From: Dehalococcoidales bacterium
GTDB lineage: Bacteria; Chloroflexota; Dehalococcoidia; Lucifugimonadales; Lucifugimonadaceae
NCBI GenBank assembly: GCA_009937255.1
Contig: JAACCT010000070.1
Span: 1 to 47,553, forward strand
Reading direction: 5' to 3'
DNA length: 47,553 bases
The notes below the pieces were generated by a model. The model worked only from the letters and a program-made list of their open reading frames with translations, made no database searches and was not told the origin of the DNA. A program made the position numbers and the translations under genes. Shown in pieces: positions 4,722 to 28,200 of the stretch. The first letter of the stretch is position 1. Every line of letters starts with the position of its first letter.

Positions 4722-4775
4722 ATGAAGATTAAAAATTACACATATTATTATTTTAGGCACTTAGAGTCTTTTTAG
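4722..4775 (+). CDS. Tyr-rich 17-aa attenuator leader peptide
   Basis: A short ORF encoding MKIKNYTYYYFRHLESF, with an AAAGG ribosome binding site at 4708-4712. Four of its 17 codons are Tyr, three consecutive (4743-4751) and followed by Phe. It precedes a DAHP synthase, the first enzyme of the aromatic pathway. Its stop codon (4773-4775) lies inside the arm that would pair as an antiterminator, the same arrangement as in the enterobacterial trp and pheA leaders. The inferred role is sensing: with charged tRNA-Tyr scarce, the ribosome stalls at the TAT run and leaves the antiterminator arm free; when it is plentiful, the ribosome reaches the stop and masks that arm. Confidence 0.75.
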   Translation: MKIKNYTYYYFRHLESF

Positions 4776-4809
4776 TGTGTGAATTATGCATAGATTATCT
4801 AAAGGCTCT
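4763..4809 (+). promoter_or_regulatory. Antiterminator helix of the Tyr attenuator
   Basis: AGAGTCTTTTTAG (4763-4775) can pair with CTAAAGGCTCT (4799-4809): eleven pairs including one G-U, with a two-base bulge. The second arm overlaps the 5' arm of the terminator at 4801-4823, so the two structures exclude each other. The first arm contains the leader stop codon. A weaker hairpin, AATTACACA (4734-4742) with TGTGTGAATT, could enclose the Tyr codons as a pause structure. Pairing was worked out by eye; no energies were calculated. Confidence 0.65.
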
Positions 4810-4828
4810 CTGAAAGAGCCTTTTTTTT
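4801..4828 (+). terminator. Intrinsic terminator of the Tyr attenuator
   Basis: A nine-base-pair hairpin, AAAGGCTCT with AGAGCCTTT around a 5-nt loop, runs straight into a run of eight T (4821-4828). It lies between the leader peptide and the DAHP synthase start at 4870, where a plain gene-end terminator for aroH would be far from its stop. This placement supports conditional termination. Confidence 0.85.
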
Positions 4829-4869: not shown

Positions 4870-5916
4870 ATGAAAAATATACAAAATTTAAATATTAAAG
4901 AAATAACCAGATTACCATCACCAGATTCTTATATTAAAGAAATTCCATCATCTGATACTCAGATTTCATTAGTTAAGAATTCTAGAAATACGATTGAAGA
5001 AATCATAAATGGAAATGATGATAGATTACTTTTATTAGTAGGACCATGTTCAATACACGACCCTAAAGCAGGAATAGAATATGCTAAAAAACTAAAAGAG
5101 CTATCAGAAAAAGTTAAAGAAAATATTTATATAGTTATGCGGGTATATTTTGAAAAGCCTAGAACGACTATAGGTTGGAAAGGTTTAATCAACGACCCTG
5201 ATCTAAATGGAACCTTTAATATACCTAAGGGCATAAAACTTGGAAGACAAATTTTATCAGAAGTTACAGAAATAGGATTACCAACAGCCACAGAATTTTT
5301 AGATCCTTTTACTCCTCAATACATTGGAGATTTCATATCTTGGGCAGCTATAGGAGCAAGAACAACTGAAAGCCAGACTCATAGGCAAATGGCGAGCGGA
5401 TTATCAATGCCTATAGGTTTTAAAAACGGAACTGGAGGGTCTGTTCAACTTGCAATAGACGCTATGGTTGCTTGTAATGGTGAACATGCATTCCTTGGTA
5501 TTGATAACGAGGGTAAAACTTCAGTAGTTATCACAGAAGGTAATGTAGCAAATCATGTTATTCTTAGAGGTGGAGCAACAGGAACAAATTATGATGAAGA
5601 ATCTGTTAATACTGCTCAAGCATTACTAGAAAAAAATGGATTAGAACCAAATATAGTAGTTGATTGTTCTCATGGCAATTCAAATAAAGATCACAATAGA
5701 CAACCAGTTGTATTTGAAGATGTAATTAGCCAAAAGGTAAATGGTAATAGTAAAATTATTGGGATTATGCTAGAAAGTAACATCAATCCAGGTGGTCAGA
5801 CTTTAGAAGAAGATTTGTCAAAACTTCAATATGGAGTTTCAATAACAGACAAATGTGTTGGATGGGAAAAAACAGAAGAAATTATATTAAAAGCTAATAA
5901 AACTTTAGGAAAATAA
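4870..5916 (+). CDS. 3-deoxy-7-phosphoheptulonate (DAHP) synthase, AroF/G/H type
   Basis: A 348-aa class I DAHP synthase, condensing phosphoenolpyruvate and erythrose 4-phosphate in the first step of aromatic amino-acid synthesis. It follows the enterobacterial AroF/G/H family throughout: LLLLVGPCSIHD with the metal-binding Cys, VMRVYFEKPRTTIGWKGLINDP, GARTTESQTHRQMASGLSMPIGFKNGT, VDCSHGNSNKDH and GIMLESNI. The N-terminal extension typical of feedback-regulated members is present, but which amino acid inhibits it cannot be read from sequence. AAAGGGA lies just before the ATG. The Tyr-rich leader and terminator upstream imply transcriptional control by Tyr supply. ribF follows after 26 nt. Confidence 0.95.
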   Translation: MKNIQNLNIKEITRLPSPDSYIKEIPSSDTQISLVKNSRNTIEEIINGNDDRLLLLVGPCSIHDPKAGIEYAKKLKELSEKVKENIYIVMRVYFEKPRTTIGWKGLINDPDLNGTFNIPKGIKLGRQILSEVTEIGLPTATEFLDPFTPQYIGDFISWAAIGARTTESQTHRQMASGLSMPIGFKNGTGGSVQLAIDAMVACNGEHAFLGIDNEGKTSVVITEGNVANHVILRGGATGTNYDEESVNTAQALLEKNGLEPNIVVDCSHGNSNKDHNRQPVVFEDVISQKVNGNSKIIGIMLESNINPGGQTLEEDLSKLQYGVSITDKCVGWEKTEEIILKANKTLGK

Positions 5917-20357: not shown

Positions 20358-21791
20358 TTATTCTCCTTCATTTATTATTTTTGGTTGAATTTTATAAAAA
20401 TTAGTTTCTTGTTCAAATATTTTTGCAATTCTTAAGACATTAAGATCATCCAATTTTTTTCCTACAATTTGTATTCCTGTAGGTAGTCCTTTTATGAATC
20501 CTCCGGGAACACTTATACTTGGACATCCTGTAGATGTTATTGCATAACATAACCCCATCCAATCAATATATGTTTCAAGTTTCACTCCGTCAATTTCTTT
20601 GACATATTCGATATTTTTATCAAAAGGAAGAACACTTGTAGAAGGCAGTACAAGATAATCGTATTTTTCAAAAAATTCTGCTACATTTTGATCAACTATT
20701 GATCTTTGAGATTCAGCTAAACTAAGGTCAGTTGCTTTTAATTCAAGGCCTTTCTCAACATTCCAGATCAAAGTTTCTTTCATAAGATCCCTATTTTTTA
20801 CAATATGCTCTTTATGAGCATTGGCAAATGTATAAGCCCTATAGGTTTGAAAAATATTATCGACATTCTCTAAGTTTGGAAAGGATTCCTCCATTTCAAA
20901 ACCTAGGTTAGAAAAAGTTTCTATAGAATTCCTAAAAGCATCTTTGATATCTTTACTGACGGGATAAATTCCTAAATTATGACTACAAGCAATTTTAATA
21001 TTTTTGGGATTTGGCAATTCTAAGTCTAGGAATCTTTCTGATGGTTCATTTATGCTATTACCTATTCTATTGTCATACCCAGCCATACAAGATAAAAGAA
21101 TAGATAAATCTTCGACATTTCTAGCCATTGGACCATTTACACTCATCATATTATAAGTAATTTCTGCAGGTAATTGAGGAATTGTACCAATAGAAGTTCT
21201 AAACCCAACTACATTATTCCAAGCAGCAGGGTTTCTTAGAGATCCTCCCATATCACTGCCTTGAGCGATAGGAACCATTCTCATAGCCAACGCAACTCCT
21301 GCACCTCCACTTGAACCTCCTGCGGTTTTAGACAGATCAAAAGGATTATATGTTGTTTTAAATACATCATTGAATGTATGAGAGCCTGCTCCAAATTCAG
21401 GTGTATTACTTTTTCCAAGTATCAAAGCACCAGATTCTTTTATTTTTTTTACAACTAAGTCATCTTCATCAGGAATAAAATCTTTATAAATTCTTGACCC
21501 CATTGTTGTACGAATACTTGCAGTTTTATTCAAATCTTTTATAAGTATTGGGATACCTGATAAAGGTTTATTATAATCTTTTGTTTTATCAATTTTCCTT
21601 GCATTTTCTAATGCAAAATCAAGAGAAAATGTACATACTGCCTTCGGTTTAGAGTCAAATTTATCAATTTGATCCGCATGTATATTAACTAATTCTTCTG
21701 AAGTAATATCACCAGAAATAAGCATATTCTTCATTTCTTTGACATTATGATTTAAAATTATCTTTTTTTCCGAATTTGAAAAATTTGTCAT
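20358..21791 (-). CDS. Amidase (amidase signature family)
   Basis: A 477-aa serine amidase. The Ser-cisSer-Lys triad is visible: Lys in PILIKDLNKT, Ser in GGSSGGAGVALA and nucleophile Ser in GSDMGGSLRNPAAW. The family includes GatA, but no gatB or gatC is nearby, and the sequence looks like general amide hydrolases of broad substrate range. I chose the ATG at 21791, which overlaps the cysM stop by 1 nt (TAATG); a GTG three codons earlier is possible. The context does not define the substrate. Confidence 0.88.
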   Translation of the reverse strand: MTNFSNSEKKIILNHNVKEMKNMLISGDITSEELVNIHADQIDKFDSKPKAVCTFSLDFALENARKIDKTKDYNKPLSGIPILIKDLNKTASIRTTMGSRIYKDFIPDEDDLVVKKIKESGALILGKSNTPEFGAGSHTFNDVFKTTYNPFDLSKTAGGSSGGAGVALAMRMVPIAQGSDMGGSLRNPAAWNNVVGFRTSIGTIPQLPAEITYNMMSVNGPMARNVEDLSILLSCMAGYDNRIGNSINEPSERFLDLELPNPKNIKIACSHNLGIYPVSKDIKDAFRNSIETFSNLGFEMEESFPNLENVDNIFQTYRAYTFANAHKEHIVKNRDLMKETLIWNVEKGLELKATDLSLAESQRSIVDQNVAEFFEKYDYLVLPSTSVLPFDKNIEYVKEIDGVKLETYIDWMGLCYAITSTGCPSISVPGGFIKGLPTGIQIVGKKLDDLNVLRIAKIFEQETNFYKIQPKIINEGE

Positions 21792-22750
21792 TACCACCAC
21801 ACTTTTCCATCAATATCATTTGCTATTTCAGAAAACTCTTTCTCATAAATTCCACTAGATAAATATTTCCAACCTCCATCTGCAAAAATTGTCACTATTA
21901 TTGAGTTTTCAAGTCTTTTAGACATCTTTACACATGTAGCCAAAGTTGCTCCTGATGATACTCCAACAAATAATCCATGAGTTTCCATCACTTTTTTTGT
22001 CCAATAAAATGATTCTTCAGCTTCTACCATTATTCTTCCATCTAATTTATCTAAGTCTAAAATTGGAGGAATATACCCATGCTCTATTGATCTTAATCCT
22101 TGCACCACATCATCTGGATGAGGTGCAGTTGCAATTATTTTTATTGATTCATTAAATTCTTTTAGTCTTTTCCCTACTCCCATTAATGTTCCTCCAGTCC
22201 CAAGACCTGAAACAAAATGTGTGACATCTGGCATTTGTTTAGTTATTTCTAATCCTGTAGTGTAGTAATGAGCTTTTATACTTGCTTGGTTTCCATATTG
22301 AAATGGCATAAAATACTCAGGGTTTTCAGATGAAATTTTTTGAGCAAGCTTAATTGATCCATTAGTTCCTTCTTTTCCTTCAGAAAAAATTATATCTGCT
22401 CCAAATGATTTTAATAAAGATACACGCTCTTGGCTGACAGAATCAGGCATAACTGCAATCATTTTATAACCTTTAATTTTTGCAATCATTGCAAGTCCAA
22501 TGCCTGTATTGCCAGATGTAGGTTCAATTATAGTTTGACCTTTGGTTATTTTTTGTTCCTTCTCAGCATCAAAAATCAAACATTTTGCTACTCGATCCTT
22601 AATAGATCCTGTTGGATTTTATCCTTCTAATTTAGCATATATTTTCACCGAAGAATTATGACTCAATGAAGATAGGTCAACAAGGCTAGTATTTCCTATA
22701 TTCTTTAGCTGCCCTTCACTAAAATTATCTATGTTTAATTTTGTTTCCAT
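21791..22750 (-). pseudogene. cysM: CysM-type cysteine synthase interrupted by an in-frame TAA
   Basis: A PLP-dependent cysteine synthase, 319 codons long, close to Mycobacterium CysM, which uses O-phosphoserine and the thiocarboxylated carrier CysO. Shared features are NPTGSIKDR with the PLP Lys, EPTSGNTG, YQYGN-like FQYGN, GLGTGGTLMG, WKYLS and the closing DGKVWW. The Lys (SIKII) and Arg (GLRSIEHG) that bind the O-phosphoserine phosphate in that enzyme are conserved. Codon 44 is TAA (22619-22621), between KLEG and NPTGSIKDR. The frame continues perfectly on both sides. Restart after the stop would lose the PLP Lys, so function needs readthrough or the stop is a sequence error. It follows moeB by 3 nt. 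Confidence 0.88.
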
Positions 22751-22753
22751 AGT

Positions 22754-23569
22754 TTAGCCAACTACTTTTACACCACAAAAAATTTCGTAATCTATTAATT
22801 CTTTAACCTCAGGGTTATCACCACAGAGCTTACAATTAGGGTTCTTCCTAACTTTAATTTCTCTAAACTCCATACTTAATGCTTCAATTAACAACATCCT
22901 GCCTGATAAAGTTTCTCCAATTCCAAGTATAAGTTTTATAGTTTCTAAAGCTTGAATTGACCCAACTAATCCAGGAAGAGCTCCTATTACTCCAGCTTCG
23001 GCACAGCTAGGGACTTCTCCAGGAGGAGGAGGGTCAGGAAAAATACATCTATAACATCCTTTTCCTGGTATATAAGTTGTGGCTTGTCCATCAAAAATTA
23101 ATATTGCACCATCTACTAGAGGTTTTTTTAATAAATATGCAGCATCATTAGCAAGATATCTTGTGGCAAAATTATCTGCTCCATTAATTACAATGTCGTA
23201 ATTTCCCATTATCTTAAATGCATTTGAGGAATTAATAGGTTCTTCATGTATAGTTACATTTACATCAGGGTTATGAGCTAATAAAGTTTCCTTTGCAGAC
23301 TCTACTTTTCTTTTGCCTACGTCAGAATCTGTATGAAGAATTTGTCTCTGACAATTTGAAACATCTACAGTATCAAAATCTACTATTCCTATATTCCCAA
23401 CTCCTGCTAATGCTAGATACAGTGCTACAGGTGAGCCTAATCCTCCAGCTCCAATTATTAAAACTTTAGCATCAATTAAAGCTCTTTGGCCTCTACTTCC
23501 AACATTAGGCATTATAAGATGCCTACTATATCTTTCAACTTGTGAAGGATTTAATGGTGTTATTGACAT
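22754..23569 (-). CDS. moeB: MoeB/ThiF-type sulfur-carrier adenylyltransferase
   Basis: A 271-aa E1-like enzyme that adenylates the C-terminal Gly of a small sulfur-carrier protein. It has the ATP loop GAGGLGSPVA, the Arg finger region SNCQRQILH, the catalytic stretch around CAEAGVIGALPG, and two zinc CxxC pairs (CYRC and CKLC). It lacks the C-terminal rhodanese domain of MoeZ, so sulfur must come from a separate sulfurtransferase. Being directly upstream of a CysO-type CysM suggests it charges the carrier for cysteine synthesis, with molybdopterin or thiamine synthesis as alternatives. GGAG precedes the ATG. A Cys-codon leader and terminator lie upstream. Confidence 0.9.
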   Translation of the reverse strand: MSITPLNPSQVERYSRHLIMPNVGSRGQRALIDAKVLIIGAGGLGSPVALYLALAGVGNIGIVDFDTVDVSNCQRQILHTDSDVGKRKVESAKETLLAHNPDVNVTIHEEPINSSNAFKIMGNYDIVINGADNFATRYLANDAAYLLKKPLVDGAILIFDGQATTYIPGKGCYRCIFPDPPPPGEVPSCAEAGVIGALPGLVGSIQALETIKLILGIGETLSGRMLLIEALSMEFREIKVRKNPNCKLCGDNPEVKELIDYEIFCGVKVVG

Positions 23570-23591: not shown

Positions 23592-23618
23592 AAAAAAAAA
23601 CCCCCATACTCAGGGGGG
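23592..23618 (-). terminator. Intrinsic terminator ahead of moeB (attenuator)
   Basis: On the minus strand CCCCC(C) TGAGTAT GGGGG is followed by nine T (23600 down to 23592). It ends only about 22 nt before the moeB start and downstream of a short leader ORF, so it would stop moeB transcription unless disrupted. The opposite strand has no T-run after the hairpin, so it acts on the minus strand only. Confidence 0.85.
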
Positions 23619-23667
23619 ATTCGAACAATTATAAAAAAACTCACTAAGAGTCCGAACTTACCCTAAG
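23609..23667 (-). promoter_or_regulatory. Antiterminator helix of the Cys attenuator
   Basis: Arm CUUAGGGUAAGUUCGGAC (23667-23650) pairs with GUUCGAAUCCCCCCUGAG (23626-23609). This gives 7 pairs, a symmetric 3x3 internal loop and 8 more pairs, with three G-U in all. The second arm contains the whole C-run of the terminator stem, so the two helices exclude each other. The first arm lies within the leader ORF. A ribosome held at the early Cys codon would leave it free, while one at the stop codon would cover much of it. Derived by eye, without energy calculation. Confidence 0.6.
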
Positions 23668-23703
23668 GCAACACATAGTTAAATTTTTACATATAATTTT
23701 CAT
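23644..23703 (-). CDS. Cys-containing 19-aa attenuator leader peptide
   Basis: A short ORF encoding MKIICKNLTMCCLRVSSDS, with Cys at positions 5, 11 and 12; Cys is rare in this proteome. It lies between a probable promoter and the terminator ahead of moeB-cysM, genes for cysteine synthesis. There is no Shine-Dalgarno, but TATAAT ends 6 nt before the ATG, so the message may be leaderless. Cys-responsive leaderless leader ORFs are established in mycobacteria. A role as a cysteine sensor is inference from position, codon content and the competing hairpins. Confidence 0.65.
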   Translation of the reverse strand: MKIICKNLTMCCLRVSSDS

Positions 23704-23709
23704 AATTCA

Positions 23710-23751
23710 ATTATATATAAATTTATAAAAATTATATTGATTAAATTGCAA
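23710..23751 (-). promoter_or_regulatory. Candidate promoter for the Cys leader-moeB operon
   Basis: On the minus strand TATAAT (23715-23710) would start transcription at about the A of the leader ATG. An alternative is TTGCAA (23751-23746) with TATAAA (23727-23722) and an 18-nt spacer, which gives a short untranslated leader. The AT-richness allows chance matches; the divergent SDR gene must also have its promoter in this gap. Confidence 0.4.
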
Positions 23752-27762: not shown

Positions 27763-28200
27763 TTAAGTAAAGTTAACTGCTTTAGAGTTTAACAAACTTT
27801 GCCTTTCAGCTAATGAATGAACTGAAATTTTGCTTAAATGATTAAACAAAACCCCTTCGACATCTTGCCATAGTTCTCTTTGACTACATGATTTTGTATG
27901 TATACAAACTTCTTCATTATCCAAGCAATCAACAGGTGAAAGAGAATAGTCAAGAATTTTTATTATATTAGAAACATAAAGAGTTTTAGGGTCAGCTGTT
28001 AATTTATGACCTCCTAGAGGACCTCTAGTTGATTCAATAATTCCTATTTTTTGGAGTTCATTTGAAATCCTCTGTAAAAATTTCAAAGGTATTCCTTGAT
28101 CCTTAGAGACTTCTTCAGTCTTAATTAGTCCCTTATCTTGATGAAGTGACAAGTATACTAGTAATCTTAGAGCATAATCAATTTTCATAGGTATTAACAT
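27763..28200 (-). CDS. Rrf2-family transcriptional regulator with three clustered Cys
   Basis: A 145-aa winged-helix regulator. DYALRLLVYLS is at the N-terminus and the recognition helix region is IPLKFLQRISNELQ, followed by wing GPLGGHKL. DCLDNEEVCIHTKSC provides three Cys of the kind that bind a Fe-S cluster in IscR, NsrR and RsrR. The longer ATG is kept because it places the YA pair at residues 9-10 as in IscR. It is 51 nt upstream of the mutarotase on the same strand, so it may be the first gene of that operon and its regulator; it could instead control redox or sulfur genes. Confidence 0.88.
   Translation of the reverse strand: MLIPMKIDYALRLLVYLSLHQDKGLIKTEEVSKDQGIPLKFLQRISNELQKIGIIESTRGPLGGHKLTADPKTLYVSNIIKILDYSLSPVDCLDNEEVCIHTKSCSQRELWQDVEGVLFNHLSKISVHSLAERQSLLNSKAVNFT

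Follow-up and report, generated by a model that had tools for sequence, protein, structure and literature searches.

A putative cysteine-sensing transcription attenuator before moeB-cysM in SAR202-type Chloroflexota

The trp, his and phe attenuators of Proteobacteria combine a leader peptide enriched in the operon's end product, an arm at the leader stop codon, an antiterminator and an intrinsic terminator before a biosynthetic operon (cf. PMC1183508). Predictions of leader-peptide attenuation have been published for Proteobacteria, for Actinobacteria and for some Firmicutes (PMC2965389). The first prediction of actinobacterial Cys leaders, that of Seliverstov et al. 2005, was of leaders without conserved terminators (PMC1262725), and Cys leaders have been seen in Actinobacteria by ribosome profiling (PMC4633059). 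Mycobacterial poly-Cys leaderless short ORFs are credited to Canestrari et al. 2020 in PMC9031893 and PMC9094748, and the leaders of M. smegmatis are cited from that study as cysteine-responsive (PMC9031893, PMC9094748, PMC13236596). Mycobacterial Cys leaders have been described as translation attenuators (PMC13236596).

The locus described here resembles the trp, his and phe attenuators in its leader, arm at the stop codon, antiterminator, terminator and biosynthetic target. It differs from them in the amino acid (cysteine), in having no Shine-Dalgarno sequence before the leader, in its phylum and in the several transport and thiol targets of its relatives; unlike known leaders of that type, the SAR202-type leaders match no Rfam leader family. 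With the mycobacterial leaders it shares a first-in-operon short ORF, clustered Cys codons, a probably leaderless mRNA, sulfur and cysteine genes and an expected response to cysteine. Unlike them, it combines an intrinsic terminator with an antiterminator arm that pairs, lies in Chloroflexota and precedes partly different genes. Because the terminator feature differs, the SAR202-type leaders were not grouped with the mycobacterial ones. The original prediction knew of no description in this kind of organism, and our search of the open-access literature likewise found none of attenuators in Chloroflexi/SAR202, nor of DUF4395 in connection with cysteine.

The leader before moeB-cysM

The window, the whole stretch of 47,553 nucleotides analysed, is part of a metagenome-assembled genome (MAG), and all evidence given here comes from the sequences of MAGs. 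Reading of the minus strand revealed a complete set of elements at 23715-23592, followed by two genes:

23710..23715 (-), TATAAT, -10 element by sequence, ending 6 nt 5′ of the leader ATG (23703)
23644..23703 (-), leader ORF of 19 codons, MKIICKNLTMCCLRVSSDS and stop, with Cys at codons 5, 11 and 12
23668..23673 (-), TGT TGC (Cys11-Cys12), putative regulatory codons; TGTTG is invariant in alignment A1
23650..23664 (-), arm 1, AGGGTAAGTTCGGAC, putative 5′ arm of the antiterminator, in the leader ORF directly before the stop codon
23620..23626 (-), arm 2, GTTCGAA, directly 5′ of the terminator C-run; GTTCGA is invariant
23592..23618 (-), predicted intrinsic terminator, CCCCCC-TGAGTAT-GGGGG-TTTTTTTTT, -10.3 kcal/mol
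22754..23569 (-), moeB, ThiF/MoeB-type carrier-activating enzyme (PF00899, E 8.6e-83; NCBIfam MoeB models)
21791..22750 (-), cysM, PLP cysteine synthase of the CysK/CysM family (PF00291, cysKM models)

The terminator consists of CCCCCC (23618-23613), a 7-nt loop, GGGGG (23605-23601) and nine T (23600-23592), and it ends 22 nt before the moeB ATG (23569). The original prediction had read the 19-codon leader, the arms, the terminator with its G5 and T9, the 22-nt gap and the TATAAT ending 6 nt before the ATG, and all of these were present on the minus strand. Its naming of the downstream genes as moeB-cysM agreed with the profile matches. We propose moeB as the first gene under leader control. 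The cysM gene of the window has an in-frame TAA at about 22620 (-), giving LEG-stop-NPTGS, where relatives have GAA and L063, L031 and L033 encode LEGENPTGS; the TAA may be a nonsense mutation or stem from an error in the assembly. A carrier protein with a GG end, which the moeB-cysM pathway would need, has its gene in another part of the genome (G000:C76).

In most of the genus's moeB leaders (e.g. L063, L031, L005, L033), 6-7 nt separate the TATAAT from the ATG. A -10 element lies 6-9 nt 5′ of the AUG in many of the 46 leaders collected from all operons, none of which has a Shine-Dalgarno-like motif. It is plausible from these features that the Cys leader mRNAs are leaderless. Over all first genes, the TATAAT-to-ATG spacing showed 17 cases at 6 nt against a background of about 10; this peak was rejected as too weak a sign of general leaderless transcription.

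With high confidence, we read the locus as a transcription attenuator of the classical ribosome-mediated kind, sensing charged Cys-tRNA, probably on a leaderless mRNA. The transcript would start at or beside the leader AUG, and a ribosome would translate the leader with its Cys codons. With cysteine in ample supply, the ribosome at the stop codon would cover arm 1 and leave arm 2 unpaired, so that the C-run/G-run hairpin with its U-tract could form and transcription would end before moeB-cysM. Under a shortage of Cys-tRNA, the ribosome would stall at the Cys codons, and the free arm 1 would pair with arm 2, hindering the terminator and presumably allowing moeB-cysM to be read. The leader, its Cys codons, the pairing arms, the terminator, their conservation and the associated genes support this reading of the moeB leader at the level of sequence. 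Points that speak against it are the premature stop in the window's cysM, the possible coexistence of both helices at moeB, the lack of two-sided covariation in the moeB arms and the weak arms of f18 and g11, all described in this account.

Conservation and pairing of the arms

A Cys-rich leader with a terminator was found at 8/8 moeB loci of the window's SAR202-type Chloroflexota genus, about 130 nt 5′ of moeB. The eight peptides are MKIICKNLTMCCLRVSSDS, MSYSNTILINCCNSKRSSY, MNIMYLKVNTCCCRRSIEL, MNIXNLKLNICCCRRSVEL, MNILSINLNLCCWRAIEL, MKYLNTILVSCCNS and MNNNKKSFICCRT (twice). The ORF position and Cys-Cys(-Cys) are kept in all eight despite divergence of the remaining peptide, and the invariant parts of the alignment are TGTTG, TCG..CT, GTTCGA, CCCC and the T-run. 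The arm core TCGRRC is likewise present in 8/8. The pattern GTTCGARNCCCC..GGGGTTTTT, covering arm 2 and the terminator, matched once each in 7/9 genus genomes, always 5′ of moeB; its reversed control gave 0 matches in the nine genomes. Genera and families are given anonymous handles (g1, g5, f18 and so on). In a second genus, g5, all 8 moeB loci read have a leader and terminator whose sequences differ from those of the window's genus. Clustered Cys codons thus precede moeB at 16/16 loci in two genera, although the loci of genus-mates are related and the counts are not independent. Seven moeB loci of genera g6 and g8 lack a Cys leader and terminator. The comparison suggested in the original prediction hinged on whether Cys codons and paired arms persist among relatives: every genus relative with moeB has Cys-Cys, arms and terminator before it, and g5 has them with other sequences.

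Outside the order, no match to the moeB leader was found among L054-L110 from other phyla with a regular expression demanding TGYTGY and a C-run terminator. In 400 genomes of the phylum, the sole convincing match to a strict three-Cys pattern was the window's own, a weak negative because true members, G004 and G013 among them, escape this pattern.

A short ORF could also stand by chance before the terminator of another gene. We surveyed 345 intergenic ATG short ORFs of 12-25 codons in 986 kb, and Cys-Cys occurred in 4/219 and 4/126 of them, so that 1-3% carry it by chance. A terminator and gene followed 3/8 of the short ORFs with Cys-Cys and 2/337 of the others (Fisher p 8e-5), and all five of these matches are amino-acid leaders, three for Cys and two aromatic. 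The leader is kept at all genus moeB loci and before other operons, and on the minus strand the next gene upstream ends at a distance of 1 kb, with a plus-strand gene in between. The probability of a chance ORF is accordingly close to nil.

Folding of the whole moeB leader was moderately better than that of shuffled sequences (z -1.7). The best duplex between the region 3′ of the Cys run and the 5′ side of the terminator was compared with dinucleotide shuffles. The window's arm1:arm2 duplex beat the shuffles (p 0.007), and so did the arms in 34/46 leader regions (p<=0.05); family f18 and genus g11 showed weak pairing. In the genus moeB arms, 94.6% of cells pair, falling to <=52% when the arms are slid. 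Two-sided covariation was absent from these arms, which had one-sided (G-U) changes only. Arm 1 begins 9-30 nt 3′ of the first clustered Cys codon and always lies near the stop codon. It is kept as RNA regardless of reading frame, either inside or after the ORF. The paired sequences differ by locus (TCGAAC/GTTCGA, GGTTTCTC/GAGAAACC, GGGTTTCTT/AAGAAACCC and GGGGCATC/GATGGCCCC; GGGTAT.. against ..GCCCC at g5 moeB). Since neither arm sequence nor reading frame is common to the loci, this argues for selection on pairing.

Two other origins were set aside. A tRNA-derived T-arm, suggested by GTTCGAATCCCC, is disfavoured by the lack of a tRNA match at the locus and by an arm that varies with its partner. 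A T-box or other known riboswitch or leader family gave no Rfam match at the gathering score, and the leader-type matches at E<=5 were all far below threshold.

With the ribosome modelled at the Cys codons and the 3′ half of the terminator not yet made, arm1:arm2 pairing was about 0.9 in most groups. With the ribosome at the stop codon it was 0, partly because arm 1 sits in the assumed ribosome footprint. The two states proposed for folding analysis were therefore separated when modelled before the 3′ half of the terminator exists; equilibrium folding of the full leader did not separate them at most loci. The original prediction placed the terminator C-run inside arm 2, implying that the two helices exclude each other. 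Arm 2 overlaps much of the terminator 5′ stem in most groups, whereas at genus moeB it mostly abuts the stem, and exclusion would be less strict there than implied. There the terminator core and the arm1:arm2 helix can coexist in static equilibrium folding, so any switch at genus moeB must be partial or kinetic.

The same coexistence would suit a leader that acts on moeB translation or on Rho-dependent termination, with the hairpin an ordinary or partial terminator, and mycobacterial leaders without conserved terminators (PMC1262725) described as translation attenuators (PMC13236596) offer a precedent. Against this, at nearly all loci a C-run/G-run/U-tract terminator separates the leader from the gene, most groups have an arm 2 that overlaps the 5′ stem of this terminator, and the moeB GGAG lies outside both arms. 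We consider such an action improbable and favour transcription attenuation.

Leaders before other sulfur and thiol operons

We scanned the family genomes for Cys-Cys together with a terminator, without regard to gene content; 39/76 gave matches, compared with 4 in the reversed control. Other sulfur and thiol genes are preceded by an architecture of the same kind, in which the peptides differ and the arms, though different, still pair:

Sulf_transp (PF04143), genera g1, g5 and g6
DUF4395, genera g1, g12 and g11
Peroxiredoxin (AhpC-TSA) with DUF4395, genus g5
ATP-grasp with PIG-L, and thioredoxin (Thioredoxin_9), family f18

Cys runs in these leaders reach seven consecutive residues (MSNIYMRKCCCCCCCRNERFL). 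The window's genome has three Cys leaders, before moeB (C18), DUF4395 (C100, MYCIEMKNCCCCRNDRFLL) and Sulf_transp (C105, MTKNILTNIMCICCCCMQSIRFL). The moeB leader, originally considered singly, is thus real but not alone, and the set spans several genera. A Cys short ORF before an amino-acid transporter gene (MCSENFFSDVCCWCHS) was rejected because it is not conserved and another element occupies the region.

The Cys-rich nascent peptide itself might be the sensor, binding metal or reacting with an oxidant and stalling the ribosome, as in proposals for copper-responsive uORFs. Up to seven Cys in a run could bind metal, and a peroxiredoxin is among the targets. The residues around the Cys are not conserved, however, and the spacing varies (CC, CCC, CxCC, CCCCCCC). 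The targets are mostly cysteine synthesis and sulfur uptake rather than metal export, and a Tyr/Phe-rich leader before a presumed DAHP synthase gene in the same window suggests general use of amino-acid leaders in the genus. A peptide sensor is therefore very improbable.

Under the attenuation reading, further sulfur and thiol operons here and in related genera would be controlled by this device through peptides and arms of their own, forming a cysteine regulon. Cys-rich leaders and switchable stop signals before sulfur genes indicate that stalled ribosomes are probably the means by which SAR202-type bacteria sense a shortage of cysteine. We lean towards an order-level regulon in SAR202-type Chloroflexota, run wholly by poly-Cys leaders and intrinsic terminators without a dedicated regulator protein. 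It would cover the uptake of sulfur, cysteine synthesis with a carrier protein, DUF4395, defence against peroxide and perhaps the making of low-molecular-weight thiols, and its origin would be independent of that of the actinobacterial Cys leaders.

Attenuation by stalled ribosomes is a known mechanism, and for its apparent occurrence in Chloroflexota we found no earlier report. The present leaders would extend leader-peptide attenuation to this phylum and place several operons per genome under Cys leaders. They would also give Cys attenuation a full terminator/antiterminator anatomy, the Cys leaders in the literature found being those of Actinobacteria, without clear terminators. In uncultured marine bacteria, the uncharacterised DUF4395 and the ATP-grasp/PIG-L pair would become linked to the supply of cysteine.

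In family f18, the ATP-grasp gene lies behind a poly-Cys leader at L280, L282 and L284, and a PIG-L deacetylase gene is next in L280, the locus at which the following gene was read. These genes may possibly represent a low-molecular-weight thiol pathway not known before. The g12 loci (L271 at about 1520-1870; L231-L246) have a Cys-rich ORF, MSNALRTTTTNSPQQVCTCMCTCTPTGVPSLACCTC and stop, that contains an arm, ACAGGGGTTC, able to pair with the terminator that follows by complementarity, and a conserved 35-aa ORF, MINIFKISLSAVRKALEAAHGLGIENDSLQIARKS, after that terminator.

The window also encodes an Rrf2-family regulator (IscR/CymR-like) at 27763-28200 (-). In genus g6, the gene directly 5′ of moeB encodes a protein whose C-terminal region is similar to this Rrf2 protein.

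An aromatic leader and another conserved element

A second leader lies in the window at 4722-4820 (+). It encodes the Tyr/Phe-rich peptide MKIKNYTYYYFRHLESF, ending in a stop codon, and its arm AGAGTCTTT can pair with AAAGGCTCT of the terminator. The gene that follows (4870-5916) we take, from its sequence, to be DAHP synthase. The leader is conserved in G004 (MNKNYYTYYYFRLAESF, L199), and its arm duplex gave p 0.06 and 0.19 against shuffles. It is probably an aromatic attenuator, judging from these features.

A strongly conserved element, TTCGGTGAATCCCG..GCTGGTGTCACTCCTGA, precedes a gene resembling the binding protein of an amino-acid ABC transporter in 8/9 genus genomes (L390-L397; G000:C40 at about 8100). 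The element has no Rfam match. Its CTCC can pair with the Shine-Dalgarno sequence, and we regard it as a candidate riboswitch-like element.
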